Below, in pieces: positions 25,865 to 64,000 of a stretch of 64,000 bases of DNA (positions are counted from its first letter, which is position 1; every line of letters begins with the position of its first letter). A program made the translations under genes and the position numbers. The notes beneath the pieces were generated by a model that saw only the letters and a program-made list of their open reading frames with translations, searched no databases and was not told where the DNA came from. Source of the stretch: Tetracentron sinense (lineage: Eukaryota > Streptophyta > Magnoliopsida > Trochodendrales > Trochodendraceae); NCBI GenBank assembly GCA_015143295.1, contig CM026563.1, positions 6,634,001 through 6,698,000 of the forward strand, given 5' to 3'.

Positions 25865-26474
25865 TTATATGGATTAAACAAGGGAAATAGTTAACGTATC
25901 TCGGAAAGAGATTTTAAAATCCAAGGCTGGACCTCATTAGTCTATGCCCCCTTTCTTAAATACCCATTAACTGTGGTAGGTATTTAAGAGGGAGACATAG
26001 ACCAATGACGACCAACATTGGATTTTAATATCCATTTCCCATGCTAATCACTACTATTAAACAATTGCACAAGAGAGCTTAACCTTTAAACAATAAAGCC
26101 ACTGTGAAGGGAAAATAATCACACCTTCTAGCTGGTGGAGCGAAGGAAGAAGTTTTCGTCCCCTTTTCTTGCCACATGTCTCATTTTAACTCTTTAATTG
26201 TGGTTAAAATTTCTTAATCACGAGGGTTAAAGCATTTAAGGACAGAAGGATTTGTGAGTGGCAAGGAGCAATCTTCCGCTCCTTCCTCGATAGAGGATTA
26301 TTGCTCCAAGGCCACAGATGATTTGGTTCCAGTTCCGAGGCAACGATACCTCGATCCGTGTCAAATAAAACCAACTAATGTTATTTCACCACGTATATAT
26401 AAACCCTTTTCAATATAAATTCGCTCATTCCTCGTCATCTCCAAGCCAGCGCTTCGTCACCTCAAAGTCAAGAG

Positions 26475-26492
26475 CCACGTCATCGATCCGCG
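26475..26492 (+). promoter_or_regulatory. Histone Type I element of H2B-1
   Basis: CCACGTCATCGATCCGCG joins the hexamer (ACGTCA) and the reverse octamer (GATCCGCG), the S-phase promoter element known from plant histone genes. It lies 140 bp before the ATG. A second, weaker octamer-like word (CGATCCGTGTC) lies near 26351. A TATAAATG word at 26532-26539 is the likely TATA box. Confidence 0.9.
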
Positions 26493-26614
26493 CGTCTTTC
26501 CATTCCCCAATAAAAATCAATTACCTATGCTTATAAATGAGAATCGAAACCCCCAAGTCTTATGAAAAACTAATCTCGCTATTCTCAAATTTGTTCATAG
26601 TTTCTGCTGTTGCA

Positions 26615-27079
26615 ATGGCGCCAAAGGCAGAGAAGAAGCCCGCAGAGAAGAAACCGGCGGCTGAGAAGCCGACGGAGGAGAAGAAAAGCACCGTAGCAGA
26701 GAAAGCTCCGGCAGAGAAGAAGCCCAAGGCGGGAAAGAAACTACCGAAGGAGAGCGTTGCTGCTGTTGACAATAAGAAGAAGAAGAAGCGCGTGAAGAAA
26801 AGCACCGAGACCTACAAGATCTACATCTTCAAGGTCTTGAAGCAGGTCCATCCTGATATCGGGATTTCCAGCAAATCCATGGGGATCATGAACAGTTTCA
26901 TCAACGACATCTTCGAGAAGCTTGCCCAGGAGTCTTCCAAACTCGCTCGTTACACCAAGAAGCCTACCATCACTTCTCGGGAGATCCAGACTGCTGTTAG
27001 ACTTGTTCTTCCTGGCGAATTGGCCAAACACGCTGTCTCTGAGGGCACAAAGGCAGTCACCAAATTTACCAGTTCTTGA
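26615..27079 (+). CDS. H2B: Histone H2B, copy 1
   Basis: Intronless, 154 residues. The frame is open upstream to 26537, but [19 protein letters not shown] is the family start; the upstream Met would lie almost on the TATA box. Residues 1-60 form the basic Lys/Ala/Glu/Pro tail with KKPAEKK-type repeats; residues 61-154 are the histone fold, with [40 protein letters not shown] and the C-terminal helix ending AVTKFTSS. Lys150 in AVTKFTSS is the conserved monoubiquitination site. H2B pairs with H2A in nucleosomes. The Type I element 140 bp upstream fits S-phase expression. The protein is identical to copy 2 at 60248-60712; the genes differ at seven synonymous sites. Confidence 0.98.
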
Positions 27080-27666
27080 ACTGTGTTGATTTCATTGATG
27101 CTCAGATCTCAATTAGGGTTAGATATTTTTTTCTTTTGAGCTTTGTTCTCTCCATTCTGAATGGATTTTCTTCTTACGTTTCGTTTGGATTTAGATGCTT
27201 TTCTGATGTAATATACTGATATCTGATTCAGAAATTAATACACGCTTCTTCAGATCTATTGTGTGGTTTTTTAAACTATCAAAAAAAAAAAAGGATCCGC
27301 TTACATAGGGCTACGTGTCTTGCTATCATGGGTTCCAGCATCTTTGTGAAACTCCTCTAGTCTCTCCAACAGAGCTGGACGGAAGATTAGGGAAAGAGCA
27401 ATAGTTCGCTCCTCGCAGAGGATCGAATTTCTGCTCCTCGCTCTCAGAAAGTCAACTCAACTGAATGAACTTTAGTTAATTTTTTTAAAAACTCTTATGG
27501 TTAAAAATCATTCTACTTTATTTATCTAAAAACCAAATGTAGACGGGTGAACCCTAGGGGTTAGTGAATTTTAACCATAGCTAAATGGAGCCAAAAGAGG
27601 GACTTGTGGCATTAAAATGGGACCCGAGCTTCGTGTCACCGATTGAGGAGTTGATTATTTTCCTAA
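27080..27666. other. H2B-1 3' flank
   Basis: The 3' UTR probably runs to about 27260 (TGATGTAATATACTGATATCTGATTC). This block recurs after H2B-2 (60713-60890), after the H2B pseudogene (46023-46195) and as an isolated remnant (34411-34600), so it marks duplication units. The remaining sequence pairs with 60890-61606 of unit 4. Confidence 0.7.
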
Positions 27667-27813
27667 TCCTATGTTTGGTTGCTAAGAAAATAAGTAAAAA
27701 CATGGAAAAGAAAAGAAAATTTGACAAAACACAACTAAAAATTGTATTAGAAATTCTAAATTTTCTTTTATTTTCCATGTTTTCATCTATTTTCTCGGCA
27801 ACCAAACATAGCA
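27667..27813. mobile_element. Tourist-like MITE, 147 bp, with visible empty site
   Basis: Inverted ends TCCTATGTTTGGTTGCTAAG and CGGCAACCAAACATAGCA; flanks TAA (27664-27666, 27814-27816). The sister unit 4 reads TTTTCCTAAGGGAAAAC at 61601-61617, exactly the uninserted site. The insertion is thus younger than the unit 1/unit 4 duplication or was never in unit 4. A same-length relative sits at 44512-44658. Confidence 0.93.
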
Positions 27814-28651
27814 TAAGGGAAAACGGTTGCTATAGTGGGTTTTATTTTCTTTGTGAAACTTGTAAGTCTCTACAATAGAAAAAGTATTTGTGGATTTTTG
27901 AAATTTTTGACTTCGTATTTCATGAAATAAATGTGAATTATTCGCAAAGTTTTGGACAAGTTATGAATAAATATATACTATATGAAGTATCTTTGTTTAT
28001 AATTAAGAATACTATTTATATAGATTTATCCATGGGGTGAAGAAAACGAAGAGGCACAAACCTTTGTGCCCTGAGATTTATCACATACAATGTTATCTTG
28101 AGTTTGTTTGTTGTAAATTTTACCATTCTTTGTTTAAGGAACTATCACCCTGACTGTGCATAACATAGAAAAATCTCTAAAAAAGAACCTCACTGCAATT
28201 TTGTTTGAGTTCAAAATCCACATATCTAAATTATGTCATAGATGGATTTTCTTTGCTAATTAGCATAGCTTGTGCAAAATATTTATGAAATTGCTGACAT
28301 CCTTGCTGTCCTATTCATATGTTGTCATAGATATCCATCATGCTCACCAAATTGGCTTGCAAAGCTACATTAAAAATTGTGTTTCAGCGTGTATTTTCGG
28401 TATGAGAAATAGTTAACGGACCCATGGATCCTATTTGCAAACCTAAGGCATCCACCCTATCACTACTCTTTTGGTATCAATTGATTTCATTTGTCATTTG
28501 GACTGAACATTGAACTGACTATGAGAGTAAACATGATTCCTTGTGGAACATGTTGCAATAGTATAGACTCTAAGGTACATGTTGCAACAATATAGGTTGT
28601 ATGGGTTTTCACTTTCTCCCCTTATAAAACAAAAAATGTATGGTTTGTATT
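27814..28651. other. Spacer shared by units 1 and 4, partly like UNC93 intron 5
   Basis: Positions 27900-28025 (words GAAATAAATGTGAATTATTC, ACAAGTTATGAATAAATATA, AAGTATCTTTGTTTATA) match UNC93 intron 5 sequence at 36295-36400 and, shortened, at 48120-48180, and unit 4 at 61725-61830. No coding sequence is recognised here. Confidence 0.55.
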
Positions 28652-29420
28652 CAAGGTTGTTAAATCTTAATTGAATCGTAAAATCGTTTTAGGACCGATT
28701 CGATTCAAATCGGGATTCAGATCGTAAATCATAAGATTCAATCCATTTAAAAAAAAATTGTTTAAAAAATACAAAATTTTAGTTAATAAATCTGAAAAAA
28801 AGAATACTGTATTATCTAAAAGATTTCATTCATATCTATTGATAAAAGAAAGTAATGAACATTTCATTACATACACTACAAACAACGCGAATGAACTCCT
28901 CAAAATGAAAAAAAATATTAATATCATTAAAGATAAATCAACAAAAGTAAACTCATATAATCATGTTGTATGAGATCAAGTATCAAAAGACTTGTACAAA
29001 TGAAAAGACTAATAAAATAAACTATGAAGGAAACTATCAAGTTTTCCCAAAATCCAACTCCATAATCATTCTTCTTCCTTTTTTTTTTTTTCTTATTTCA
29101 CAGCACGTTAGCAACAAAGTGAAAACCCAAATAGGGGTTTTGGCATGTCCGTAACAAGAGTTTTTGTTTCTTCTCTTTTCTTAAAAGTCATAAAGTACCT
29201 TTAGAAAATCAAAAGAATAAAAAATATTTTTTAAATATTGGTCCGTAAAAGGGGTTTCGTGCTCAAATCGCACGATTTGAATCGCAAATCGTAATCAGAA
29301 TCACAAATCAAATGAGATTTACCTAATTAAGATTTTCACTTCCAATTTGAATCGTTTTGCTTGGGATTCGAATTGAATCGTAGGATTTGAATCGCAAATC
29401 GCAAGAATTTAACAACCATG
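28652..29420. mobile_element. hAT-type MITE (family B), 769 bp, with empty site
   Basis: The ends CAAGGTTGTTAAATC and AATTTAACAACCATG are inverted; TTTGTATT flanks both sides (28644-28651, 29421-29428), an 8 bp duplication. The sister unit 4 has the uninserted TTCGTATT at 62377-62384. Subterminal parts are packed with AATCG/CGATT words in both orientations (28670-28740 and 29260-29410). The middle is AT-rich and non-coding. Confidence 0.92.
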
Positions 29421-29947
29421 TTTGTATTTGGTTGTTTCTTGTTTCAATGCTGCTTTTTTCCTTTTGGATCCTTAATTAAGAAGTTTTAACTGCAAATATG
29501 GTGCCCTCTGTTTGCAGTTGCTGCATAAGGAATTGAGAATTTGATAGTATTGTAATTCTGAGGAAAAAACATTTAGGTCGTATCAAAAGGGTAGAAGATG
29601 ATTGATTAGAATAAAATATTTGGACTATATGGCGCAAAATGAGTCGATTTAGATCCTCAATTATGAAGTTTTAATTGCAGATATGGTTATCTTTGATGGT
29701 TGTTCTGATTCTCAATAGAATTACCCATGTGGGTGCCGATCTGCGGATTATTTTATTCGTTTCTTTGTATGTTTACAAGCATCTGTCACATTTTATAATG
29801 TTACTTTTTATCATGCAATATATGTATTCGCATTCTTTTGTTCTTTCAATATCAATCGTGACTCACTTTGACAAGACCGAAGAAACATCATGATATTTCT
29901 TCTCCAACACCTTCAACAATCTCTTCAATTATTCAATGGAAGCTGAG

Positions 29948-30435
29948 ACTCACTTTGACAAGACCACAGGAACCTGAATTTTTAAAACTGTCCATCGGGT
30001 TCATTCTATATGGGTGAAGAGCTTTGCTGAACTTGAGGAAGAAATGATGGCTAAAATTCCAAAATTTAAAGCCCGGTCAGTAAACAAGAAGGCCTGCTTC
30101 CTTTGCTTAGTATTTATTTCTCAATGGGGATACCATATTCAGGATTTTCTTTGTTTATGTGGCCTATATGTTGCACTCAATTTAGTCCTCTTCTCCGTAG
30201 ATCTTGGAAACTCCTACATTGCCTGCATTGCCAAGTAAATACCCCTCAACTACCAGAATTTCAGGTAAAATGTACCGTGAAGGGATGTTGATGAGAAAGA
30301 TATAAAAGGCATTGTTTTGGTCATCACACTAAAATAGTTCTAATCTACTCAGGAATTTCATTTGTAAATAATGAAGATGGCAAATCAGCACACGAAACAT
30401 CAATAGTTGTATTATCCACTGAAGCTTCTTTCCAG
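29948..30435 (+). pseudogene. TPX2: TPX2 fragment, three broken exons (copy 1)
   Basis: Three exon remnants of TPX2, the spindle-assembly and microtubule-nucleating factor, are recognisable. Exon a (about 29951-30089) reads LTLTRPQEPEF, then in another frame FAELEEEMMAKIPKFKARSV; exon b (30201-30264) reads ILETPTLPALP, then TPQLPEFQ in a shifted frame; exon c (30353-30435) reads EFHL, a stop, then MKMANQH. The family sequence is KIPKFKARP-NKKI, APTLPALP, STPQLPEFQEFHLKTMERA. Splice sites around exons b and c remain. With frameshifts in a and b and a stop in c this cannot make TPX2. The same stop in exon c is present in unit 4, so the fragment was dead before it was duplicated. It lies between H2B-1 and UNC93 exons 8-10, same strand. 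No other TPX2 exons were found. Confidence 0.85.
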
Positions 30436-31937
30436 GTTAGAAAACCTCTTTTTGATCTTCTCAAAACCTCTACAATCATGTCAGCTTCATTTATTTTCAT
30501 ATACTGAGAAATAAATGACTTATATGTATGATAAAATCAAGGGAAACCCCATAAGCTTACAGAACCTAGAACTCCTCATCTTGAAACATCCTTGCGATCA
30601 CGTCCCCCCAAGTAGTTTTTGAAGGGGATGATTCATGTTCAATTGAAGTTGAATTTGTATGCTTTTCCATTATAAGAGAAATTACAAATATGTTGATACA
30701 CAGGTTGTACATGTTATTCATTTGCAAGTTTTGGGGCCTACCATGTACTCAGGCCAGAAATTGACCTGAGTGGGTAATTGTAAGTCGTAACTATCTGATC
30801 TCTATATTTGTTTTGATTATTCGCCATATCTTTTCTGATTTGTGTTGATTAGATGGTAAGGATCACCTGATCAGGTCATTTTGTGGCATGGGAGGTGTCC
30901 TAGGTGGGTCATGTCTTATCATGGTCCCACCCTCTGAATTTGAGTCCTGGATAAAATGGTATGATATGGTCGAATGGATCGACGAATTGGCGATCTATTT
31001 CCTCTTACCATACAATAAAAAGATAGGTAATGAACTTAGTGTTACATGTTAAAGTACCAAACTTTGTTGTAACATCTCTTTCTTACTTGTATTTATCATC
31101 TAAAGTGTTTGCTGTTGATAACTACACTATCATCATTTTTGGAAGCCACAGTTTTAACAATTTTCACATCTGGTATCCAAATATTTAACTTTGATGCCCC
31201 ATAGGAAGTGAGTCTTAATATGCCAGGCTTTCTAAAAGCGCAGAAGAGAAAAAAAAGACTGTTTGGTGCATGATTGTGGAAATCATTTTAATCAATCTAA
31301 GCTTGTGTTTGGGCTTCATGTCAGTGTTCGTTGGCGGTTGGTCGATTTACATCTGGTCTCTCATCAATCACTTTAATAGTTTCTGATGGAGCTTTTGTTC
31401 ATGCCATTGTACTGCTGTGGCTTTTGCTTAAATACAGGTAAACTTCTGCTGACAAATCTAATTATAATGATTTGTAGAAGTTTAGTGGAGTGTAAAATTT
31501 GATGTACAGCCACTATCATCTTTGGCAGCTCTTAGCTTTACTATATTGTTATGCAGATTAACTAGTGGAGTGCTTGGCTATGTATACCCACTTCTCATGG
31601 CAGCCTTATTGGGCATCGGTGATGGGGTATTCAATACACAACCGAATGCTTTGCTTGGAATGCTCTTCAAACATGACATGGTAATAATTTATATCTTTTC
31701 GCTCTAAGTCCTGATACTATTAGTGTCTTGAAATATTATGACAGTTCTTTTACTCACATAAATTTGAGGAAGCTGATCGGCATCCCAACTCCTAACCTAA
31801 TTGTTTATTCCTTTTTGTCACATGATTCCCTAAAAGACACACACACCTCTACAACTCCTATATGGATTCATTCTCTCAATTTTAGGGTCCAGAGGGTGTC
31901 CTTGGTTCCACCATGGATTTCAATCCTTCGACTATTA

Positions 31938-32254
31938 GGCTCCTTTCTTTTGGTGGAACTTTTAAAAGTCTGGAACATAAATATTTTGAAACAAGAGGCA
32001 AGAGTCTGCGAGGAGATGGGAGAAGGTTTCTAATTCTTTTACACAATGGTATCTCATACTTAATGGGTTCAATTTATTAGAAATTCCACACGTATGGAAC
32101 TTAAAAAATCCAAAATTTTTCGTGGAACTTGAAAGTTCCATTTCTGTAGAACTTTTGCACTCTATGGAATAATGTAGTTCTAGACATTAAATAAAATTAG
32201 GCATGAAACAATGAATATTCTAGACTTTAAAAGTTCCACCAAAAGAATGGACCC
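31938..32254. mobile_element. Tourist-like MITE in intron 9 of the UNC93 tail
   Basis: Inverted ends GGCTCCTTTCTTTTGGTGGA and TCCACCAAAAGAATGGACCC; TTA on both sides (31935-31937, 32255-32257). Inside, TGGAACTT/AAGTTCCA words repeat on both strands. The equivalent place in unit 3 carries a different insertion, so it is specific to unit 1. Confidence 0.85.
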
Positions 32255-32898
32255 TTAAAAGTGGTGGAACAATGGGATTTGTTGCCTGAGTGGAATGCAA
32301 AGTGTGTCTAAAAAGAAACGTAAAAGAAAACACGTCTTGAAGTGACAAAGGTGAAGAAATTCAATTATTAGACATCAGTTACAGCCCTTATTACCCATTT
32401 CTGTAGATCTGACACATGGAGTTCTTGTTTGCTCCTTGGAAGGCATATCATATACTTAAAAGTTAAAACGAGGTATTTAGATTAAACAGAATTCTTGTTA
32501 GAGATTGAAGCTATTTCAGTTCGTGGCCATATTCATGGGTTTATCGTTTCTTCTGGGAGAAGGAAGCAAAGGTGTCGCAGATTTAACAAAGGAACTCTAA
32601 CATGGGGTGAAAATGCAGGGGAATGAGGGACTCAATTGAGGGTCCAACATTACTATGTCATATATCTCATAGGTTTTAGAGTTTAACCCAGTCTGATGGT
32701 TGTAACCATCAGATTGGTAGTTTCTTTTTCTTTCATTCTTTTCCCTTGCCATCTGTTTGGTTGACGAGTAAATATGTGAAAACAGATAAAGGAAAAGAAA
32801 TTTAGAAAAAAATGCTACTAAGCTTTGTATTAATGAAACTATATTTTCCCACTTCTCTCTGTTTTCACCTATTTTTTCAGCAACCAAACTGGGGTTTA

Positions 32899-33047
32899 GG
32901 CTCCGTTTGGTTAGCAAGAAAGGAAAAGAGATGGAATAAATTATAGAACAATTTTTTTTTTTGCCAATCAAATTTAAAATGCTCCATTTTTTTATTTTAT
33001 TTTTATAGTTTTTTTATTCTTGCATTTTCTTGCTAACCAACGGAGCC
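32899..33047. mobile_element. Tourist-like MITE, 149 bp
   Basis: Ends GGCTCCGTTTGGTTAGCAAG and CTTGCTAACCAACGGAGCC, flanked by TTA (32896-32898, 33048-33050). Remnants of its right half occur at 40060-40135 and 56760-56845 in the other UNC93 copies, so this insertion predates the unit duplication. A weaker sister hairpin (TGTTTGGTTGACGAG ... CAGCAACCAAAC) lies just left, 32752-32892. Confidence 0.8.
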
Positions 33048-33153
33048 TTAACAACTTACCCTTATGTTTCCTTGTTTCCCTTATCTAGACTCTGGAATCT
33101 GGATAATGTACTAATAGTGCACCCACAGGTCTTCTTGGGATCATTTTGAGTTG

Positions 33154-33487
33154 TATAGTTACCAAATCCACATATTATACCCGTATAATACTTTTACGGG
33201 GTCGCCGTTTATAACGGTGTAATTTTGCTGTATTGTGTATTATATGCATATTACCATAAAATACGCGTTAATACATGAATTTCGTATTAAATATTATAAT
33301 ACACGTATTTTTCCCATACTCGACCGTCTTAAACGAATATTTCGCATTAAATGATTATTATTAGTTAGTATCATGATTGTTATTTATTTATAATTATTAA
33401 TTTGTTTTACAATTTTACCGTATAACACCCATTTTTCCCAAATGGATCATTGCCATATTATACCCGTACCTATACTTGATAACTATG
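33154..33487. mobile_element. hAT-type MITE (family C), 334 bp, with empty site
   Basis: Ends TATAGTTACCAA and TTGATAACTATG; flanks TTGAGTTG (33146-33153) and GTGAGTTG (33488-33495), 8 bp with one change. Unit 3 reads TCATTGTGAGTTGAATATC at 56927-56945 and unit 2 the same at 40217-40235, the uninserted state. The inside is built from CGTATAATAC/GTATTAAATA-like words. It lies 44 bp before the exon 10 acceptor region. Confidence 0.88.
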
Positions 33488-33717
33488 GTGAGTTGAATAA
33501 GTAATTAAAGAAAATGTTTTATGGTCGACAGGAAGGGGCATTTGCACAGCTCAAAGTCTGGCAGAGCACATTGACTGCAGTTGTGTTCTTTCTGAGCCCC
33601 TGCATCACATTGCAGGCAATGTTGGTGGTTATGCTTGCTGCCCTCTGCATCTCAATAGCGGGGTTTCTGTTTCTAATGCTTCGGGTAGAGAGAGCTTTTA
33701 CTTCTTCTGGGTCTTGA

Positions 33718-34410
33718 TATTGGCAGAAGCAGATCCACCTGGTTATTTCTTCCAAAGTAAAATTTATATCTTATTCTTGTTCATTTCTCATGTTTAATCC
33801 ATCTATAATCTCTTGAATCACTACGCTGTTATGTGTAAAATAGCTTCTTCAGCTTAGATTTTGTATCAGAAGTTTTTTTTTTTTTTTTTTGTATCAGAAA
33901 TTTTAAGATGGTGTCATCATTTAAATGGTCTCATCTCAAAGAAAAGTATAGATTTGTAATCCTTTGGCTTGCCTTTGTTTATTGCTATTTTTTTTTTGGT
34001 CACTTGAGGTTGTTAGTAAGGATTAATGCTGAACTAAGATTAATGAGATGCTATGTAACTATTGGATAATTTTCATTTGGTGGCATGCATTTTTTCTCTT
34101 CATCTGGTAGGTATTCAGGCGGACTCCACTAGGGTTCTAGTAAGTGCTGACTGCTGACAAAAAGTCCGAAATATTTGACATTGGAAGTTTTCCCATACTT
34201 CCCAAACGAGATCGAAGCACATCCAATTGCAATTGGATTCGGGAAGAGTTCAATCGCACCCACAAGTCACCATGTGTCCCTGTTAATTCCAGTTAACCAT
34301 GGTTAAAATTTACTAAACCTTAGGTTCAACAATCTAACTTTTGTTTTTAGAAAAAATATTAACCCTAAGGGTTACAAATTTTTAACTAGAGTTAAAAGTT
34401 TTTCTAAAGA
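33718..34410. other. 3' flank of the UNC93 tail and foldback repeat
   Basis: 33718-34215 aligns with the 3' flanks of the other UNC93 copies (40451-40800 and 57158-57640). At 34285-34405 lies a TTAACCATGGTTAA-type foldback arm. No gene is seen. Confidence 0.6.
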
Positions 34411-34600
34411 TTTACCAGTTCTTGAATTGTGGTGATTCGATTGATGCTAAGATCTCAATTAGGGTTAGATGTTTTTTTTGTCTCTCCATTCTCAATGGAT
34501 TTTCTTGTTCCGTTTGGTGTTAGATGCTTTTTCTGATGTAATATACTGATATCTGATTCGGAAATCAATACAAGCTTATTCTTCAGATCTATTGTTTAAT
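34411..34600 (+). pseudogene. H2B 3' end remnant
   Basis: TTTACCAGTTCTTGA, the last codons of H2B, is followed by the H2B 3' UTR block (TCTCAATTAGGGTTAGATGTT, then CTGATGTAATATACTGATAT). Everything upstream of the last five codons is absent; a foldback repeat lies directly against the break. It marks the left edge of duplication unit 2. Confidence 0.85.
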
Positions 34601-35075
34601 TCACTTATTGATTAGGCTGTTGTTTTACCAAAATGCCCTTACATGGGGCTACTACGTGTCTTGCTCTTCTCTCGATTTGTTGTTTCTTCATCTCCTTTTG
34701 ATCTGTTTTGGTCCTGAATCCGAACCCTCTCACATGCGTTCTAGTTCTTAAGATTCTGCAGGCAATTCCCCTCTTTTGATTTTTAAATGATAAGATTGTA
34801 TTTGTAGGGTTTTAGGTTTATTTAAGGTTCTTGGTTTCTGAATTCTTGATAACTTGAAGTGAGAATTCCAAGCTATGGATTCTGTAGAATCCCGGGATGA
34901 AGAGGGATCCCTGTTTGTCAGGGATTTGCCATTAGAAACCCCAAAGAACCATGTAAGAGATGTTCATATATTGAGCTGTGCATTCCTGTTTATATTTTTG
35001 GCTTATGGAGCAGCTCAAAATTTAGAGAGTACAGTGAATACGGTGAGTTTCTGTTCTCATAATTTGAATTTATGG

Positions 35076-52800: not shown

Positions 52801-55800
52801 TAGTTACAAACTAGCCAAACCACCCACTAATCATATCTCTACCTAGGTACATAACATTCCATCTCGCTTGAAAGAACCTTGTCCTCAAGGTTGAAAATTA
52901 CATACGACTCTCGGATCTTCAACTAAGACTAATGAAAATCGTCATTGTAGGATAAAGATGACCACTTCGAGGGGGTCTTCCTCCAAAAAACCGCTTCGAG
53001 AGGGTTTTCCTTCAATATTTAGCAGTCACAACTTCAATCATCTATCTAACCATTGTTGAAATCACCACAAAGTCGCAGGAACCTTACTTTGATACCAATT
53101 GTTATGTGCCTTTCTTAAATAAAATAAAAACATAAAAGAAGAAGGGGAGGGAGATATGGCTGATTCGAGGCTGCCCGGGACCTCCATTAATGCCTCTTCG
53201 AGAGGACAAACCTTTACATGTTAGAACAACTATCTTCATTCAACATATTATAAAGACAATAGTAGTTACAAACTACCCACTAATCCTATCTCTAAATAAC
53301 TACCCCTATAAATACCTAGGTACATAATAGGAACATTTTTTTTCTCTCCTTCATCCATTTGAGGGGACTGAAATTCCCAACTGTCTCGCCCTACCAAGCT
53401 TAACATCATGTCTTTAAGAAACCAAAACAGTGGGAGTCTCTCTTGGTCCTCTAATATACATTTTCTACTTTTTTTCGTAGTCCAAGATATATCTTGAATT
53501 GGACATGGCAGTAAGTTAATATAGAACCAAGATGATGCAACTGGTTGGGTATAAGAATCATGTCACATACCTTTATCTACAATGCCATTTTCACCATAAC
53601 CATAGTGTGCTTTCAAGAGGAAAAGAATATGCCCTGTTGGAATGATCAGAAAGAGTATGCTAACATGAGTTCTACATGTACTGGTGCCACCTTGAGGATC
53701 TAGGCCAGAAATTGATCTGAGTGGGTAATCGTAACCAGCTGATCTCTATACGTTTTTGGATGATTCGCCATACCATTTTTGATTCTAGGTTGGATGGTAA
53801 GGATCACTTGATCAGGTCATTTTGTGGCAAGGGAGGTGTCGTAGGTGGGTCATGTCTTATCATGGTCCCACCCTCTGAATTTTGGCCTGGATAAAATGGT
53901 ATGTTATGTTTGAATGGTGTGGCGAATCAGTGATCTGCTCAAGGAATATGTCAATGTTTCCTCTTGCTATATGATAAATATTTGGTGAATACTTGTATTT
54001 ATCATCTACAGTGTTTGCTGATGATACCTATACTATCATTTTGGATATCTTTTGGACTCCATAATTTAACAATTCTCTTAACCAGTATCGAAATATTTTA
54101 CTTTGATGCCCCATAGGAAGTGAGTCTTAATATGTCAGGCTTCCTAAAAGTGCAGGGAAAAAAATGACTTTGGTGCATGATTGTGGAATCATTTACTTTA
54201 TTAATCTGAACTTGTGGTTGGGCTTTCGTGTCAGTGTTCGTTGGCTGCTGGTCGATTTACATCTGGTCTCTCATCAATCACTTTGATAGTTTCTGGTGGA
54301 GCTTTTGTTCAGGCCATTGTATTATTGTGGCTTTTGCTTAAATACAGGTAAAGTTCTCCTGGAAAATCTAATTGTAATATTTTGTAGAACGTATAGTTGA
54401 GTGTAAAATTTGATGTAAAGCCACAATCATCTTTAGCAGCTCTTATGCTTTACCATATTGTTATGCAGTTTAACCAGTGGAGTACTTGGCTATGTGTACC
54501 CACTTCTCATGGCAGCCTTATTGGGCATCTGTGATGGGGTATTCAATACACAGCTGAATGCTTTGCTTGGAATGCTCTTCAAACATGACATGGTAATAAT
54601 TTATTTTTTTAAGCTGTCAGTCCTGGTACTATTTAGTGTTGAAATATTATGACAGTCCTTTATACGTAAATTGGAGGAAGCTGATCGGCATCTCAACTCC
54701 TAACCTAATTGTTTATTCTTTTTTGTCACGCTATTCCCTAAAAGACACACACACACACATGCCCCTCTACAACTCCTATATGGATTTATTCTATCTATTT
54801 TAGGGTCCAGAGGGTCCTTGGTTCTACCATAGTGACAAAGTAGGGGTTTGGAAATAATTCAGAAAGGGTCAACTTTTAAAAAAGTCGGGAAAATACAGGA
54901 ATAATAAATTTTTTTTAATAATTATAAATATTATCCAAAAATTTTATTATATACACAATAAGCAGTTTATTTACTGAACTAAACAAATAATTCTGGAAAT
55001 TTGCGACTAATTCAAGAATAATTCGGCAAACTTAAAATTCATGAATAATTCAGCAGACCTAAAATTCATTTATAATTAGCAATGAGATTTGCTGCCTGAA
55101 TGGAATTCAAAGTTTGTCTAAAAAGAAACGTATATAAAAATAACAGAATTCTTGAAGTGACAAAGGTGGATAAATTCAGTTATTGCCCTTGTCACCATTT
55201 CTGTAGTATGAGACATGGAGTTCTTGTAGGCTCCTTGGAAGACATGCTTAAAACGAGGATTTTAGATTAAACAAAATTCTGGTCAGAGATTGAAGCTATT
55301 TCAGCCATTGTTTAAAAATCGCTAAAACCGATACGTATCGGTTACGGTTAGACTCAATACCCGAAAGCGTACCTATACAACTTTTTTGAAAAAAAAATAG
55401 GATTCTGCCAAAACCGTTATGTATCACCCGAGTCCTACGATACGTAACGGTTTTGGCCGTAAGACTCAACCGATGTTTTTGAGATAAAAGGGTTACGTAA
55501 ACTCCTAAAAACATACAAACAATCTATTTTTCTCTTCCTCTCTACTCATTCTATGTCTTGAAACCTTAAAATCCGTTTTATTTTTGGTGATTGAAAACTT
55601 GATTTAGGACTTCACAGTGTATATTTCTACTTTCGACTCACCTATTGCCTTATATTTCATTATTTTTACATTTTCAATTGATATTGATTTAGAATAATGT
55701 TGTTACCCATCCACAACATTTTATTTTTATTTATTGTGATTTTTCGATTTTTTTTCAAAACAAAAAAAAAGGCCAAAACTGATACGTATCGGCCATAGGA

Positions 55801-57157
55801 ATCAATTTCGGTCAGGACCACTACGGTCCCCGAAACCGAGTTTTTTATCCTTGATTTCAGCTCGTGGCCATATTCAAGATCGTTTCTTCTGGGAGAAGGG
55901 AGCAAAGGCGACGAAGATTTAACAAAGGAGCTCTAACATGAGGTGAATGCAGTGGGAAACATAGTAACAAAGTTCGGATTCGGGAATTATTCGGCAGAGG
56001 TTAAGTTCGAAAAAAAGGGGAAAAAATCGGCAAATTCGGGTTAAGTTCGGGATAAGTTCGGAAAAATAAAAATTAATAATTATAAAAAATAAGAACGTGA
56101 TGCCAACTAATCCATCTACCAATCTCTATGTATTGACATCTCTTACTATGTTAACATTTATTCCAATTTCTAAAAAACAAGCATTATGTAAACTCGCAAA
56201 CTCAAGAAAAAAATTACATAAGGCTTAAGTAAGCTTTATGTAATTTATGAAAAAAGAATAATTTAGATTACATGTTTGTATATGCAAATCAAATTATATA
56301 AGCAATTCAAAAATATATAAAAAGGAGAAAAATAATAATCTGAATAGATAAAATCAGAAAAGCAATATATGAGTGTATTTATTTGGCATAACATAGTTAT
56401 CTAGTAAAATATAGAAATAGCTCAGAATAAATAACACAAATCTTATTTTCTCTTAGTTCAGTGGAAATTCAACAGACTAACCAGCATACAAAATTATATT
56501 TTTTCTCTCAAATCAATCGAATGTAATCAAAATCCTAGGTCCTCATATGTCAGAGATCTCATAGGTTTTAGAATTTAACCAGTCTGATGATTGTAACCAT
56601 CAGATTGGTTGTTTTTTTTTTCTCTTTCATTCTTTTCCCTTCATTTGTTTGGTTACCGATAAAATATGTTAAACCAGATAAAAGAAAAAGAAAATTAGAA
56701 AAATTGCTACTACGAGTGGTATTAGAGAAACTTTTTTTTTTTTTGCTTTTCTTTCTTTTCACCTATTTTGCTAATCAAACTTAAAATGCTTTAATTTTTT
56801 AGTTTCCTTTTTTGCATTTTCTTGCTAACCAAGGGAGCCTTAACAACTGGTCCTTATGCTTCCTTGTTTCCCTTATCCAGACTCTGGATATTGTACTGTT
56901 AGTGTACCCACAGGTCTTCTTGGGATCATTGTGAGTTGAATATCTAAGTAAAGAAAATATTTTTTGGTGGACAGGAAGGGGCATTTGCACAGCTCAAAGT
57001 CTGGCAGAGCGCATCGACTGCAGTTGTGTTCTTTCTGAGCCCCCACATCACATTGCAGGCAGTGCTGATGGTTATGCTTGCTGCCCTCTGCATCTCGTTT
57101 GCTGGGTTTCTGTTTCTAATGCTTAAGGTTGAGAGAGCATTTTCTTCTTCTGAGTAG
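46855..57157 (+). CDS. UNC93-like: UNC93-like protein 3, the complete copy
   Basis: Ten exons: 46855..47022, 47131..47294, 47453..47516, 47610..47723, 47857..47901, 50292..50539, 50695..50785, 54235..54347, 54469..54592, 56975..57157; 437 residues, the length I recall for Arabidopsis UNC93-like protein 3 (At3g09470). All junctions are GT-AG and in phase, and no stop interrupts. Start MDSVDSRDEEEPLIV matches the family; an in-frame Met seven codons upstream is less likely. UNC93 proteins are multi-pass membrane proteins related to the major facilitator superfamily; hydrophobic blocks begin at HILSCAFLFIFLAYGAAQNL and recur to the end (VVFFLSPHITLQAVLMVMLA). Conserved phrases include GSKNALVLGTTGYWLF, SSSIIWVGQGTYLTS, FNGEFWGMFASNQ and GVSGVGGAMAVYGAFDA. 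In Arabidopsis the protein has been tied to potassium balance and stress response; transport activity is unproven. Intron 7 holds a 2.4 kb LTR cluster and intron 9 a hAT MITE; both should be spliced out. Ser replaces Arg at the exon 8/9 junction. Confidence 0.93.
47902..50291. other. Intron 5 of the complete UNC93 gene
   Basis: 2.4 kb, aligned along most of its length with 36096-38666 of copy 2 except for the LINE tail found only there. From 48300 to 48640 it carries a segment absent from copy 2, with AGTGTGGAGCCTGTTCAGAC, TAGGGTACTCTTGTACTTTC and ending TTAGGGTTTATTCCCTAACAGTGA; this resembles an LTR or retroposon tail but no pair was found. Confidence 0.5.
50924..53329 (-). mobile_element. 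Cluster of Ty3/gypsy-type LTR fossils in UNC93 intron 7
   Basis: The whole insert is bounded by GGAAC on both sides (50919-50923 and 53330-53334), and copy 2 has the uninserted GGGAACATT at about 39279. It begins TGTTATGTACCTAG and ends CTAGGTACATAATA. Parts: two tandem related repeats at 50924-51117 and 51119-51290; three LTR-like repeats at 51460-51726, 52611-52856 and 53100-53329; short internal parts between them. TTTGATACCA before the second and third LTRs is a minus-strand primer-binding site; CTTGTCCTCAAGG beside the LTRs and a gag-like start (MAEGRRIDKLEEM, minus strand near 52583) mark the gypsy type. Nearly all of pol is absent. It is broken, with several losses and nested or recombined parts; a hAT MITE later jumped into it. 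LTRs differ from each other, so the cluster is middle-aged at least. Confidence 0.8.
52066..52392. mobile_element. hAT-type MITE (family A) nested in the LTR cluster
   Basis: Flanked by CATGGAGG on both sides (52058-52065 and 52393-52400), a perfect 8 bp duplication. Ends CAAGGATTAAAAAT and ATTTTCATTTCCATG. Subterminal words are GATACGTATC, TATCGGTTT and relatives. Same family as 55306-55853. It is younger than the LTR sequence it interrupts. Confidence 0.9.
54829..55080. repeat. Insert with AATAATTC words in UNC93 intron 9
   Basis: Relative to unit 1, extra sequence starts CATAGTGACAAAGTAGG and ends near ATTCATTTATAATTAG. AATAATTCGGCA/GAATAATTCAGCA words repeat. The start resembles CATAGTAACAAAGTTCGG at 55963, so both may be one hAT-like family; the right end was not resolved. 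Confidence 0.5.
55306..55853. mobile_element. hAT-type MITE (family A), 548 bp, with empty site
   Basis: ATTTCAGC flanks both sides (55298-55305, 55854-55861), an 8 bp duplication; unit 1 has the uninserted GCTATTTCAGTTCGTGGCC at 32509-32527. Ends CATTGTTTAAAAATC and GAGTTTTTTATCCTTG. Subterminal words CCGATACGTATCGG and ACCGAAACCGAG. It lies in intron 9 of the complete UNC93 gene. Confidence 0.9.
55960..56545. repeat. Insert with AAGTTCGG words in UNC93 intron 9
   Basis: Unit 1 lacks this stretch (its 32625-32655 joins directly). It begins CATAGTAACAAAGTTCGG and has many TTCGGG/AATTCGG words in the first 120 bp, then AT-rich sequence. The right end and target duplication are unresolved. Confidence 0.45.
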
Positions 57158-57765
57158 TCTGATATTGGCCGAAGCAGATCCATGTGGTTATTTCTTCCAA
57201 AATAAAATTTATATATTCTTCTTCATTTCTCATGTTGTTTAATCCATCTGTAGTCTCTTGAATCACCACACTGGTATGTGTAAATTTGTATCCCAAGTTT
57301 TAAGATTCTGCCATCATTTAAATGATCTCACCTCAAAGTATAGATCCATGATCCCCAATGATAGATGATGCATGCTAGAGGCATGCCTTTTTTTTATTAC
57401 TTATTTTTGGTTACTCTAGGTCGCATATGAAACCATGGTAGCAGGAATTAATGATTAATGTTTATTAAACTAAGATTTAATCTTGTGCATGACATCTTTT
57501 TGTAACTATTTAATAGCTGTCGTAGGAGGTTTTTTTTTTTCATGGTAGCTGTTCAGGCGGACTCCACTAAGGTTGTAGTAAGTGCTGACTATAAGTCCAA
57601 AATATTTGACATCTGATTGAAAGTTTTCCCATGGAAAATAGTTAATGTATCCGAGATTCCCATTTTATCACGGAATGGCCGGTCTTCATTGTTACACGCC
57701 CCAAATTTAAAATATTTGAAATCACTCATGGGAAGTTTCCCGTGGAAAATAGTTAACGTACTTGA
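57158..57765. other. UNC93 3' flank and tandem ~105 bp repeat
   Basis: 57158-57640 aligns with the other UNC93 3' flanks. GGAAAATAGTTAA-GTA with TTCCCATTTTAT, GGAATG-CCGGTCTTCATTG and CACGCCCC (57635-57710) recurs as 57743-57765 plus 58911-58965, split by the hAT element. Confidence 0.65.
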
Positions 57766-58902
57766 CAGGGCCGGCCCAAGCCATTTGGAGGCCTAAAGCG
57801 AAAATTTTAAATGGGGCCTTTTTATATATATTTTTAATATTATTAAGAAAAATTAACTAAAATTTATTTTTTTCGTTTTTTGAGATGCAAAATTACTAAT
57901 TAAACTTTTGTATTCAAGTTTTCCTAACATATCCTTTTCAATTGAGGCTGGGGCTCGAGTCCGTGTAGTAAGTTAATCCTTAGTATATTTCTAATATAGA
58001 GTCTGGCAATTACTCTATAATAGCAAGCACCTTGTACAATGCATATAGCTTCCAAACAATCATTCATTTGTATGAATCATTTTTTTTCTCCTAGATTAAA
58101 ACAGAGCAGACAGCATACCAAAGTAAGTTAATCCTTGGACAATAGCGAGAAGGGGGGCAACTTGGGTTGACAGAAACCAAATACATAACAACTCATACTG
58201 CACAAATTTAAGGTGAAAATGGTAGCTTAGATCATTAAAAGGGAGAATCCCATATGATTTTGTGGCAATAGATTTGCAGCTGGTGGAAATCATATGGACA
58301 GAATATTTCAACAAACAGGTGGTCTGCACAATATACATGGGCATGGGGAACCATCTAAAATAATTAAAAGATAAAAACAAAAAACAAAACAAAATAACAA
58401 AGTGGAGGCATGATGAGTGGTGGTGGGAGTCTGGGACAAACCTGTGTAGCCAACACACGATCCTCCAGTGCGGCATTGCCAAGAACTTCTTGGTTACAGG
58501 CAAACCTTTATGGCAGAGAAGATGGAGAGAGGGAAGAGAGATGGATGACACTTGACAGGATGAGATAGTGCTTGCAAAGAGATGTGAAACTCTTTATGGG
58601 AGAAAGGATGGGATAGTGCTTGCAAAGAGATGTGAAACTCTTAATGGGAGAAATGGAACGGTAACCTCCTTGGAAGATGAAGAAAATCAATTTGTTGGAA
58701 ATACGAGTGCCTATTTCCCTTGATTAGTTGGTTGGAAGATTTGATTAGTTGGTTGGAATATGAAACGCATGTATTGAAATTTGAAATAACCAAACAGCAA
58801 CATTCAGGGAAATAAACGATGGAAGAAGGCTTGATTTGGGGCCTTCATTTTTGCTTGGGCCTAAAGCAAGGGCTTTGTTGGCTTTATGGACGGGCCGCCC
58901 TG
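57766..58902. mobile_element. Non-autonomous hAT element, 1137 bp
   Basis: GTACTTGA flanks both sides exactly (57758-57765 and 58903-58910), an 8 bp duplication. Ends CAGGGCCGGCCCAAGCC and GGACGGGCCGCCCTG; CAGGGCCGGCCC is a widespread hAT end. Inside are a minus-strand frame of 151 codons (58096-58551) without transposase resemblance and a tandem pair of ~55 bp units (58559-58645, TGCTTGCAAAGAGATGTGAA). GGCCTAAAGC occurs near both ends. The non-transposase interior could be captured host sequence. Confidence 0.9.
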
Positions 58903-58969
58903 GTACTTGAGGTTCCCATTTTATAAGGGAATGACCGGTCTTCATTGGTCCACGCCCCAATTTTAAATA

Positions 58970-59618
58970 CTCACATATTGTGGTTAAGATTCACTCATCC
59001 TAGGGTTAAGCAATCTACTATGGTTTTTCAAAAAAAAAAAACAAACTAAAATCTTAGTTTTAATTTAGTTGAGCTTAACCAAGGTTAAAGGGGTGTTAAA
59101 AAGGACACGGGTTAAGATTTGAAACGGACCCATGGGTTCGCTAAGCACTGCTCTTTTCCCATACCTCCCAAACATTTTATGCAATCGAACTCGGATCTAG
59201 TAATCCCCCAGACCTGGGCCCGTTATTGAGGTGCTGCACAAAAAAATTGCTACCTGAGCCGAAGCCTGCCACCATTAGGGTTGAATGGGAAAAATGATTT
59301 TTCCGCGTTTTGGCACAGCCAATAGGGCAAGCGTAGGGCCATCCAAAAAAAAAAAAAAAAATTTTTAACAAAAAAAAAAAGAGACTTTGCTACTGAGACC
59401 GCAAAGGGTTGAGACCATGCTTGTGATGCATGGATATCAAAATTTCATTAAACCCGTTTATTAAATTTTGAGATACGTCCATCACATGCACGGTCTCAAT
59501 GTGGTCCCGACCCTTTGCAGTCTCACTAGCATTTTCTAAAAAAAAAGGGTTGAGTTCATTGGCAAATCTGGTAATTATAACAGTGTATTTGCAAATTAAT
59601 GCAAAACCTAACAGGTTA
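58970..59618. other. Intergenic with foldback repeats
   Basis: 58975-59095 is a TTAACC-type foldback (arms ATTGTGGTTAAGATTCA and TTAACCAAGGTTAAAG). 59393-59525 is a relative of the MITE at 46246: ends CTGAGACCGCAAAGGGTTG and GACCCTTTGCAGTCTCA. A runs at 59344-59380 suggest retroposon tails. No gene. Confidence 0.6.
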
Positions 59619-60010: not shown

Positions 60011-60082
60011 TTGTATGCGTAAACGGGCCCTAAGGAAATTCGCTTATTCCTCGTCCTCTCCAAGCTGGCACTTCATCAAGAG

Positions 60083-60100
60083 CCACGTCATCGATCCGCG
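60083..60100 (+). promoter_or_regulatory. Histone Type I element of H2B-2
   Basis: The same 18 bases as at 26475 (CCACGTCATCGATCCGCG). TATAAATA at 60141-60148 is the TATA box. Homology to the H2B-1 promoter starts only at 60036, so the extra octamer-like word of copy 1 is absent. Confidence 0.9.
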
Positions 60101-60247
60101 CGTCTTTCCATTCTCCAATAAAATTCAATTACCTGTGCTTATAAATAAGAATCGAAACCTCCAAATCTTATGAAAAACTAATCTCGCAATTCTCAAATCT
60201 CCTTTTTTTCTTTCGCGCTCGTTTTGTTCATAGTTTTTGCTGTTGCA

Positions 60248-60712
60248 ATGGCGCCAAAGGCCGAGAAGAAGCCCGCAGAGAAGAAACCGGCGGCTGAGAA
60301 GCCGACGGAGGAGAAGAAAAGCACCGTAGCAGAGAAAGCTCCGGCAGAGAAGAAGCCCAAGGCGGGAAAGAAACTGCCGAAGGAGAGCGTTGCTGCTGTT
60401 GACAATAAGAAGAAGAAGAAGCGCGTGAAGAAGAGCACCGAGACCTACAAGATCTACATCTTCAAGGTCTTGAAGCAGGTTCATCCTGATATCGGGATTT
60501 CCAGCAAATCCATGGGGATCATGAACAGTTTCATCAACGACATCTTCGAGAAGCTTGCCCAGGAGTCTTCCAAACTCGCTCGCTACACCAAGAAGCCTAC
60601 CATAACTTCTCGGGAGATCCAGACTGCTGTTAGACTTGTTCTTCCTGGCGAATTGGCCAAACACGCTGTCTCTGAGGGCACAAAGGCTGTCACCAAATTT
60701 ACCAGTTCTTGA
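60248..60712 (+). CDS. H2B: Histone H2B, copy 2
   Basis: Intronless, 154 residues, identical in protein to copy 1 at 26615. The seven nucleotide differences in 465 are all in third positions and synonymous (for example GCA/GCC in codon 5 and ATC/ATA in the PTITSRE block). The frame is open from 60224 but the family start MAPKAEKK at 60248 is preferred. The leader differs from copy 1 by an extra CTCCTTTTTTTCTTTCGCGC patch. Type I element and TATA box are retained, so it is probably expressed. The histone fold and Lys150 in AVTKFTSS are as in copy 1. Confidence 0.98.
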
Positions 60713-61183
60713 ACTGTGGTGATTTCATTGATGCTAAGATCTCAATTAGGGTTAGATATTTTTTTTCTTTTGAGTTTTGTTCTCTCCATTCTGAATGGAT
60801 TTTCTTCTTACGTTTCGTTTGGATTTAGATGCTGTTCTGATATAATATACTGATATCTGATTCAGAAATTAATACACGCTTCTTCAGATCTTTTGTGTGG
60901 TTTTTTAAACTATCAAAAAAAAAAAAAAAAAGATCCGCTTACATAGGGCTACGTGTCTTGCTATCATGGGTTCCAGCATCTTTGTGAAACTCCTCTAGTC
61001 TCTCCAACAGAGCTGGGCGGAAGATTAGGGAAAGAACGATAGTTCGCTCCTCTGGCGAGGAGCGAATTACTGCTCCACGCTCTCAGAAAGCCAACTCAAC
61101 TGAATGAACTTTAGTTAATTTTTTTAAAAACTCTTATGGTTAAAAATCATTCTATTTTATTTCTCTAAAAACCAAATGTAGAT
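60713..61183. other. H2B-2 3' flank
   Basis: Near-identical to 27080-27540 after H2B-1: 3' UTR block, A run, GATCCGCTTACATAGGGCTA, and the AGTTCGCTCCTC patch. Confidence 0.75.
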
Positions 61184-61470
61184 GGCCTTGGCTTGCCTCT
61201 GGCGAAGCCAGAAAGGCCTTATCTCGGGGTTCCATAGAATAGGTGACATGTGGTGAAGTCAAAATCATGGGGCCATGATTTTGACTTCTCCACCTATAAT
61301 AAGACATGTGGCGATAAGTGTGTGAGAATAAGGGTGTGAGATATCAAATGGGGAGAAGTCAAAATTATGAGGAGAAAATGAATGACTTCTCCCCAATTTT
61401 ATGGCAAGTGTCGCACAATGTATGGAACCTCGAGAGCCCTTTCAGGCTTCGCCGGAGACAATCCCAGGCC
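61184..61470. mobile_element. Mutator-type MITE (family M), 287 bp, with empty site
   Basis: AATGTAGAT flanks both sides exactly (61175-61183 and 61471-61479), a 9 bp duplication. Unit 1 has the uninserted CCAAATGTAGACGGGTG at 27533-27549. Ends GGCCTTGGCTTGCCTCTGGC and GCCGGAGACAATCCCAGGCC. Internal words as in 6807-7126. Confidence 0.94.
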
Positions 61471-61479
61471 AATGTAGAT

Positions 61480-62899
61480 GGGTGAACTCTAGGGGTTAGT
61501 GAATTTTAACCATAGCTAAATGGAGCCAAAAGAGGGACTTGTGGCATTAAAATGGGACCTGAGATGCACCTCTTCGTGTCACCGACTGAGGAGTTGATTA
61601 TTTTCCTAAGGGAAAACGGTTGCCATCGTGGGTTCCAGCATCTTTGTGAAACTCATAAGTCTCTACAATAGAAAAAGTATTCGTGGATTTTTGAAATTTG
61701 TGACTTTAGAAAAAGTCTTGTATTTCATGAAATAAATGTGAATTATTGTTAAAGTTTTGGACAAGTTATGAATAAATATATACTATATGAAGTATCTTTG
61801 TTTATAATTAAGAATACTATTTATATAATTTATCCACAGGTTGAAGAAAACGAAGAGGAACAAACCTTTGTGCCCCGAGGTTTACCACATACAATGTTAT
61901 CTTGAGTTTGTTTGTTGTAAATTTTACCATTCTTTGTTGTTTAAGGAACTATCACCCTGACCGTGCATAACATAAGAAAATCTCTAATTAAGAACCTCTT
62001 TCCAATTTTGTTTCAGTTCAAAACCCACATATCTAAATTATTTCATAGATAGATTTTCTTTGCTAATTGGCATAGCTTGTGCAAAATATTTATGAAATTG
62101 CTGACATCCTTGCTGTCCTATTCATATGTTGTCATAGATATCCATCATGCTCATCAAATTGGCTCGCAAAGCCACATTAAAAATTGTGTTTCAACGTGTA
62201 TTTTCGGTATCAATTGATTTCATTTGCCATTTGGACTGAACATTGAACTGACTATGATGAGTAAACATGATTCCTTGTGGAACATGTTGCTATAGTATAG
62301 ACTCTAAGGTACATGTTGTAACAATATAGGCTGTATGGGTTTTCACTTTCTCCCCTTATAAAAAAAAAATGTATGGTTCGTATTTGATTGTTTCTTGCTT
62401 CAATGCTGTTTTTTTCCTTTTGGATCTTCATTAGGAAGTTTTAACTGTAGGTATGGTGCCCTCTGTTTGCAGTTGCTGAATAAGGAATTGGGAATTTGAT
62501 ACTATTGTAATTCTGAGGAAAAAACATTTAGGTCTTATCGAAAGGGTAGAAGATGATTGATTAGAATAATATATTTGGACTATATGGCGCAAAATGAGTC
62601 AATTTAAATCCTCAATTATGAAGTTTTAATTGCAGATATGGTTATCATTGATGGTTCTGATTCTCAATAGAATTACCCATGTGGGTGCCGATCTGCGGGT
62701 TATTTTATTCGTTTCTTTGTATGTTTACAAGCATCTGTCACATTTTATAATGTTGCTTTTTATCATGCAATATATGTATTCATACTCTTCTATTATTTCA
62801 ATATCAATCATGACTTACTTTGACAAGACCAAAGAAACATCATGATATTTCTTCTCTAACACCTTCAACAATCTCTTCAGTTATTCAATGGAAGCCGAG
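61480..62899. other. Spacer of unit 4, paired with unit 1
   Basis: Aligns with 27545-29947 of unit 1 after removal of the two unit 1 insertions (27667-27813 and 28652-29420). No coding sequence recognised; small frames such as 62630-62845 (29675-29893 in unit 1) are not conserved in a coding manner. Confidence 0.65.
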
Positions 62900-63388
62900 A
62901 CTCACTTTGACAAGAACACAGGAACTTGAATTTTTAAAACTGTCCATCGGGTTCGTTCTGTATGGGTGAAGAGCTTTGCTGAACTTGAGGAAGAAATGAT
63001 GGCTAAAATTCAAAAATTTAAAGCCCGGTCAAGTAAACAAGAAGGACTGCTTCCTTTGCTTAATATTTATTTCTCAATGGGGATACCATATTTATGATTT
63101 TTTTTGTTTATGTGGCCTATATGTTGCACTCAATTTAGTCCTCTTCTCCATAGATCCTGGAAGCTCCTACATTGCTTGCATTGCCAAGTAAGTACCCCTC
63201 AACTACCAGAATTTCAGGTAAAATGTACCGTGAAGGGATGTTGATGAGAAAGATATAAAGGGTGCTGTGTTGGTCATCACACTAAAATAGTTTTAATCTA
63301 CTCAGGAATTTCATTTGTAAACAATGAAGAGGGCAAATCAGCGCGCGAAACATCAATAGTTGTATCATCCACTGAAGCTTCTTTCCAG
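62900..63388 (+). pseudogene. TPX2: TPX2 fragment, three broken exons (copy 2)
   Basis: Counterpart of 29948-30435. Exon a (62900 to about 63041) contains FAELEEEMMAKIQKFKAR; exon b (63154-63217) reads ILEAPTLLALP then TPQLPEFQ in a shifted frame; exon c (63306-63388) reads EFHL, the same stop as in copy 1, then NNEEGKSA/TMKRANQ-like sequence. The stop in c and the frame breaks in a and b are shared with copy 1, so they predate the duplication. Not functional. Confidence 0.85.
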
Positions 63389-64000
63389 GTTAAAAAACCT
63401 CTTTTTGATCTTCTCAAAACCTCTACAATCATGTCAACTTCCATTTATTTTCATATACTGAGAAATAAATGACTTATATGTATGATAAAATCAAGGGAAA
63501 CCTCATAAGCTTACAGAACCTAGAACTCCTCATCTTGAAACATCCTTGCGATCACGTCCCCCCCAAGTAGTTTTTGAAGGGGATGATTCATGTTCAATTG
63601 AAGTTGAATTTGTATGCTTTTCCATTATAAGAGAAATTACAAATATGTTGATATACTACTATTGTGACACTGTTATCAGGACTTCCCTTTGATACCGGTG
63701 TCTGTAAGTAATTTTCTGAGATTTCAATATTTATTATGGAATTTGAGCAGTTATGGGTTTTGTATATGGAAATGAACTCGGTGGAAATTTTTTTAATCGC
63801 ATTTGGTCATTTGAGAGTAATTACAATTGAGTTATGTCCACCAAAGTTCTTGAAGGTTGACAAGAAAAGAATATGGTGTAGAATAAAAACAATTGAGCAA
63901 TATGAGGTGCCCTGTTGAACTGATCAGAAAGACAGTCCGCCTACATAGGTTGTACATGTTATTCATTTGCAAGTTTTGGGGCCTACCATGTACTCAGGCC
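63389..64000. other. End of unit 4, running into UNC93 intron 7 sequence
   Basis: Up to about 63650 it follows unit 1 (30436-30700). Then 63650-63890 is present only here. From about 63900 (CCCTGTTGAACTGATCAGAAAG ... TTGCAAGTTTTGGGGCCTAC) it matches UNC93 intron 7 sequence at 39595-39675 and unit 1 at 30705-30755. UNC93 exons 8-10 are expected just beyond the right window edge. Confidence 0.7.

Follow-up and report, generated by a model that had tools for sequence, protein, structure and literature searches.

An array of four related units on contig C13 (CM026563.1) of Tetracentron sinense very probably arose when an inherited gene pair, an H2B histone gene followed by a UNC93 gene, was duplicated and its copies decayed, with a fragment of a Helitron-like transposon caught in one lineage of the copies. 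The window analysed is a 64-kb stretch of this contig (C13:6634001-6698000), and the coordinates of units and exons are given in its numbering. The genome (1.16 Gb) was searched with H2B, UNC93, a TPX2 piece present in two of the units, a pentatricopeptide repeat (PPR) gene and other pieces of the window, and the right flank and related loci were fetched. Plants often show tandem segmental duplication of adjacent genes with later, separate pseudogenisation of the copies; the layout described here is real and familiar in kind, and is a new example. The locus is a clear case, with events that can be put in order, of a neighbour pair that was first duplicated and later taken apart, the surviving member differing from copy to copy.

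Comparison of the window with itself, extended into the right flank, revealed four units (A, B, C and D), all on the forward strand, between 26.4 and 67.7 kb (Table 1). Positions 26417-27546 matched 60036-61185 at 92.9% identity (1161 columns, 1740 bits), and 29420-30701 matched 62376-63656 at 94.6% (1285 columns, 1991 bits), scores far above the chance level. For an inventory of each unit, the H2B coding sequence (CDS) of unit D and the ten UNC93 exons of unit C were aligned to it. These alignments and the self-comparison bear out the four units and the contents ascribed to them in the original prediction, which had also placed the array at 26400-64000 and expected UNC93 exons 8-10 of unit D within about 4 kb past 64000. 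The array is real and the exons are present, at 64604-66971 (0.6-3.0 kb past the window's end), where A 30697-34413 aligns with D 63942-67664 at 93.3% over 3773 columns; the right edge, however, lies at ~67.66 kb, beyond the window, and not at 64 kb. Within the units the segments keep the order of the ancestral pair, except for a small exon-10 repeat in B, so that the units are decayed, and 'shuffled', as the prediction had it, is too strong a word. Both genes are retained in no unit: A and D have an intact H2B, C alone has an intact UNC93, and B has neither. A scan of the window with Rfam gave no matches.

The histone of the array, which we take to be H2B from recognition of its sequence, belongs to the core histone fold family, as the unit D protein scored 75.6 bits against PF00125 (cut-off 26.4). 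The A and D proteins are identical, and their CDSs differ at seven silent positions. An extra in-frame ATG 26 codons upstream in unit A (26537-27079) gives a 180-aa frame; the frame listed for D begins at the ATG of the 154-aa protein. The unit C copy aligns only from CDS base 196 on; the alignment has 11 gap columns, and each of the three frames contains stops. Comparison of the unit D gene with H2B copies C7a, C7b and C12 from related loci gave ratios of nonsynonymous to synonymous substitution (dN/dS) of 0.08-0.13.

The UNC93 gene of unit C has its splice sites and an open frame across all ten exons, and its protein scored 123 bits against PF05978 (UNC-93; cut-off 22.9). Against the counterpart at C7, dN was 0.072 and dS 0.355, a ratio of 0.20. 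Both H2B and this single intact UNC93 look constrained, although such pairwise ratios are no proof of present function; as far as sequence can tell, the predicted tally of two working H2B genes and one working UNC93 gene appears correct. Exon alignment found neither UNC93 exons 1-7 in unit A or unit D nor exons 8-9 in unit B, where exon 10 is partly doubled (39677-39995 and 40265-40445). Intron 7 of the unit C gene (50955-53325) is swollen by two sets of mutually similar repeats (50955-51116/51142-51291 and 51459-51762/52610-52892/53127-53325).

Table 1. Features of the array, in window coordinates.
Feature	Position	Strand	Content
Unit A	26417-34410	+	H2B, cut-down Helitron piece with TPX2 exons, UNC93 intron 7 to exon 10, 3' flank; homologous to D 60036-67664
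Unit A H2B gene	26615-27079	+	full CDS, open frame, 154 aa counted from the second in-frame ATG
Unit A Helitron-derived fragment with TPX2 exons	28021-30701	+	split by A-only insert 28643-29419; 87-91% to dispersed copies on C4, C17, C8 and C10
Unit A UNC93 exons 8-10	31325-33712	+	exon 8 31325-31437; exon 9 31558-31680 aligned; exon 10 33532-33712 aligned
Unit B H2B remnant	34410-34595	+	final 16 CDS bases (34410-34425) and 3' untranslated region (UTR)
Unit B decayed UNC93	34668-40797	+	exons 1-5, part of 6, 7, partial and full exon 10
Unit C H2B pseudogene	45762-46195	+	initial 195 CDS bases unaligned; internal gaps and stops
Unit C complete UNC93	46855-57157	+	10 exons, 437 aa
Apparent insertion, unit C 3' flank	57633-59162	+	TTTTCCCAT on both sides, read from the flanks; uninterrupted in A
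Unit D within the window	60036-64000	+	continues to ~67664
Unit D H2B gene	60248-60712	+	full CDS, 154 aa; Pfam Histone 75.6 bits
D-only insertion	61184-61470	.	perfect 9-bp target duplication AATGTAGAT; A site uninterrupted, one base changed
Repeat piece of the kind in UNC93 intron 5 of B and C	61700-61832	.	A, B and C copies 88-92% to that of D
Unit D Helitron-derived fragment with TPX2 exons	61828-63678	+	both ends cut off relative to other copies
Unit D UNC93 intron 7	63681-64000	+	63681-63990 matches C7 UNC93 intron 7 in two pieces; leads into exons 8-10

The inherited neighbour pair

H2B and UNC93 are an inherited neighbour pair at three places of the genome, C13, C7 and C12. At C7 a PPR gene, two H2B genes and UNC93 are followed by stretches that match 72.1-77.4 kb of the C13 locus, in the same order as at C13. 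The C7 PPR gene is 87% identical to that of the window, which encodes a 775-aa protein; the right-flank stretch at 72.1-77.4 kb holds opposite-strand pieces of a short-chain dehydrogenase gene; and UNC93 at C7 retains its ten exons and their splice sites in an open frame. At C12, H2B, UNC93 remnants and part of the same right-flank stretch were found in mirrored order. Because order and flanking stretch recur at C7 and C12, H2B and UNC93 must be regarded as old neighbours. As expected for tandem duplicates, the related loci thus carry the neighbour pair, and the units at C13 share one strand and one place between outer flanks that belong to one locus.

Among the 28 H2B matches listed, only those at C13, C7:7.55 Mb and C12:36.67 Mb have UNC93 matches nearby, the H2B and UNC93 lists being those of the best candidates. 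These findings bear on the idea that a transposon captured H2B and UNC93 and spread the unit, so that the array would consist of transposed copies. Transposon pieces are indeed present in units A, C and D, but the four units lie on one strand in one place, and the only other places with H2B and UNC93 among the matches listed (C7 and C12) have the same flanking stretch, which makes this origin extremely improbable.

The two H2B genes at C7 (L014, C7:7548875, and L015, C7:7556056) are both intact and stand beside one intact UNC93; they stem from a separate duplication, at a Kimura two-parameter (K2P) distance of 0.084, and no UNC93 exon was found between them. C13 and C7 have thus independently come to hold a like complement, a pair of intact H2B genes with a single intact UNC93, through different duplications: at C7 H2B was copied, leaving no UNC93 remnants between the copies, and at C13 the pair was copied and its members were then lost reciprocally. 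Selection might have acted repeatedly on H2B copy number at the locus and kept UNC93 single, in which case the pairing would be a functional neighbourhood and not mere inheritance; we consider this idea unlikely.

The pairing may extend to Arabidopsis, where AtUNC-93 is At3g09470 according to an excerpt of PMC5989354 and HTB7, an H2B, is At3g09480 according to an excerpt of PMC7694166; read from these consecutive locus numbers alone, and not from a map, the two genes would be adjacent. Our literature searches found no paper on adjacency or microsynteny of H2B and UNC93, and none joining H2B with UNC93-like, tandem duplication and synteny; among the matches listed for arrays of gene pairs with H2B, pseudogenes and unequal crossing, none was on this subject by title. 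With H2B beside UNC93 at three places of the genome, and apparently in Arabidopsis too, the neighbourhood is a small and testable example of gene order preserved over a long time.

The TPX2 piece in units A and D

The TPX2 piece has a different origin. Window 29420-30760 gave at least 25 matching rows in the genome, at least 21 of them outside C13, or at least 19 places once neighbouring rows were joined; 14 of the 19 were fetched (L021-L034). L022 (C3) and L029 (C2), which are alike in pieces over ~5 kb, look like the TPX2 gene itself: L022 pieces match Pfam TPX2_importin and TPX2, the pieces of the C3 gene scoring 99.3 and 38.9 bits. The unit D pieces reach a borderline 29.6 bits against a cut-off of 29.5, with no single stretch passing, so the name TPX2 is given on ~90% DNA identity to a gene with clear TPX2 domains and not on the Pfam score. 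The array holds this piece only and no complete working TPX2 gene.

Six of the 14 places (L021, L023, L024, L025, L030 and L032) have a common 3' end, in which a hairpin is followed by CTAG or a one-base variant and then by T. The hairpin CCCGTGCATCGCACGGG is present with at most one change in all six, as expected from the palindrome of 16-20 bp near the 3' end of Helitrons. The terminus is CTAG in four (three of them local copies on C17), CAAG in L021 and TTAG in L030; a CTRR-type terminus is thus seen in the relatives and is not visible in the window copies. Hairpin plus end had six exact matches in the genome, compared with none for the reversed control. The T directly follows the 3' end in all six relatives; the 5' side of the insertion was not found in them. 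L023, L024 and L032 (C17:23.56-23.64 Mb) are three closely similar copies within 75 kb that share a 3' flank and are apparently local duplicates.

The TPX2-bearing places are not of one transposon kind, as both Helitron-like and CACTA-like ones were found. Where TPX2 sequence is common, the A and D pieces match all three kinds of place, the gene included, at ~83-92%. They belong with the Helitron group because D 61828-62153 and 62326-62875, outside the part shared with the gene, were matched at length only there (L025 and L030; L021), plus a short match in L034, a place that gave short matches only. A recurrent end at base 1282 of the TPX2 query was rejected as the end of the element, since other copies run past it; it marks the start of a later deletion in A. 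Neither units B and C nor the stretches fetched from C7 (40 kb) and C12 (30 kb) gave a match to the Helitron fragment (E up to 0.001). On these comparisons the TPX2 piece comes from a dispersed Helitron-like transposon with TPX2 exons inside it; it is a truncated copy, found only in the A/D lineage.

The original prediction had instead seen three unrelated host genes, H2B, TPX2 and UNC93, assembled and amplifying as one block with repeated shuffling. Units A and D do hold all three pieces, copied together. However, C7 and C12 have H2B next to UNC93 and gave no match to the fragment with TPX2; units B and C bear no trace of it; and the piece is dispersed, with relatives that end in a Helitron-type terminus. 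Its dispersed copies speak against counting TPX2 among the host genes of the block, and the three-gene account as a whole appears highly improbable beside an inherited pair with transposon cargo in the A/D lineage. The case also serves as a warning that a gene fragment common to duplicated units may be transposon cargo. Maize and rice Helitrons with captured gene fragments, as described in an excerpt of PMC2575219, resemble this family in the 3' hairpin, the CTRR-type end followed by T (here in the relatives), the captured host exons and introns and the several dispersed copies; unlike them, the array copies are without either terminus and owe their number to duplication of the host locus, not to transposition. 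Among the matches listed in a literature search on Helitron gene capture, TPX2 was absent.

The flanks of the fragment tie units A and D to the gene pair. In unit D the intron-5 repeat is followed by the Helitron and then by intron 7, an order collinear with UNC93. With the repeat on the left of the Helitron and intron 7 on its right, A and D therefore represent the same gene pair, the middle of UNC93 replaced by Helitron remains. The intron-5 piece is not unique UNC93 sequence; it is a dispersed repeat whose C13 copies are mutually closest among those listed, the others reaching at best 87% over 55 bp and otherwise 72-82% (40 of 109 candidates scored). Intron 5 of the C7 gene has no match to this repeat part of unit C's intron 5. 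A single UNC93 intron-7 breakpoint used repeatedly, as had been proposed, was not found: the Helitron/intron-7 junction has one origin for A and D, is kept in D at ~63678 and has suffered a further 290-bp deletion in A, and unit B has its own intron-7/exon-10 join.

Order of the duplications

K2P distances were 0.03-0.055 between A and D, 0.04-0.09 between B and C, 0.11-0.15 between the AD and BC pairs (UNC93 segments) and 0.23-0.32 between C13 and C7. The joined tree, in which rows B1, B2 and C12 fill less than half of the columns, grouped A with D (100/100) and B1 and B2 with C (100/99). Distances and tree agree with the prediction that units were copied more than once, and on these divergences the AD and BC lineages split first, B and C next, and A and D last.

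The history that we propose starts from an ancestral H2B and UNC93, in this order on the same strand; once it had parted from the related chromosome C7, the pair would have undergone three or more duplications on this chromosome, presumably by unequal crossing-over. In the ancestor of A and D, a Helitron with TPX2 exons would have come to sit within UNC93, in the stretch that separates intron 5 from intron 7. Both ends of the Helitron and exons 1-7 of the gene would have been lost; the insertion probably preceded the deletion, rather than serving as filler in break repair. Later, separate decay would have left H2B intact in A and D and UNC93 in C only, with both lost from B. Same-strand units, stepwise divergence and one intact copy of one gene among decayed others are as in other cases of tandem segmental duplication and pseudogenisation; the lack of any unit with both genes and a closest pair that is not adjacent are unlike them.

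Several observations weigh against this history. B and C are adjacent and close, yet the closest pair, A and D, is outermost, an order that plain adjacent tandem duplication does not yield, so that the simple stepwise form fails for this event. The branch joining all C13 units against C7 has support of 71/61 on the exon-10 segment by itself, against 90/97 in the joined tree; as the former is weak, this point is carried by the distances. Distances in the H2B 3' UTR (180-199 columns) are 0.04-0.09 throughout and do not separate AD from BC, and this segment may have another history or be constrained. Two of the 18 windows compared between A and D differ by 14% and 30%, with different inserts opposed, the other 16 by 1.8-6.2%. 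Collinearity of the left flank depends on one gene, the PPR gene, positioned by search only. Finally, the A and D Helitron copies lack both termini, and in the fetched relatives the common sequence could not be traced to a clear 5' end. Units A and D might have come to lie outermost because a larger block was duplicated and parts of it were later lost, or because a copy was placed at a distance; we make no choice between the two. Inversion is ruled out as the cause of the A-B-C-D order, all units being on the forward strand.

The odd order, and a difference of only ~4% between A and D, could also suggest an assembly artefact in which collapsed or misplaced haplotypes mimic two units. The window is free of N bases, though, A and D have different flanks and different insertions with target duplications, and a second haplotype copy was not seen, as identity above 88% to the H2B gene or UNC93 protein occurred nowhere outside C13 among the matches listed; an artefact is thus very highly improbable. 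The A-only insert (28643-29419, 777 bp) has GTTTGTATT on both sides, and the D site has one copy with one base changed. The D-only insertion (Table 1) is a dispersed repeat, and an 82% copy of it lies at C7:7556894-7557179, at nearly the same distance past an H2B. The target duplication and the uninterrupted site in A argue for separate insertions in D and C7; the coincidence of position is unexplained.

A second family with a TPX2 piece

A young family with CACTA-type ends and a TPX2 piece (L026, L027, L028, L031 and L033) has no member in the window. The 3582-bp element L028 2129-5710 (C14) has the ends CACTATGTGAAAA and CACTACGTGAAAA, CAT on each side and the TPX2 piece inside. The 5' end of the family gave at least 40 matches at 94-100% (40 scored of 174 candidates). 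In a literature search on CACTA transduplication, those papers among the matches listed that mention TPX2 were unrelated by title. Pack-CACTA elements, as presented in an excerpt of PMC8903248, are like this second, younger family in combining CACTA-type ends with a captured piece; unlike the Helitron-like family, it lies outside the window, and the two have only the captured gene in common. The rice and maize set of that excerpt shows 5-nt duplications, compared with the 3-bp CAT at L028, the sole element here with both ends seen. The CACTA-like copies are 99% identical to the TPX2 gene (617 columns in L026, L027 and L028; 475 columns in L031), and the Helitron-like family is ~83-90% identical to it. 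Overlapping stretches of the gene (L022 4073-5164, C3) were thus seemingly captured twice, by an older Helitron-like and a young CACTA-like family.

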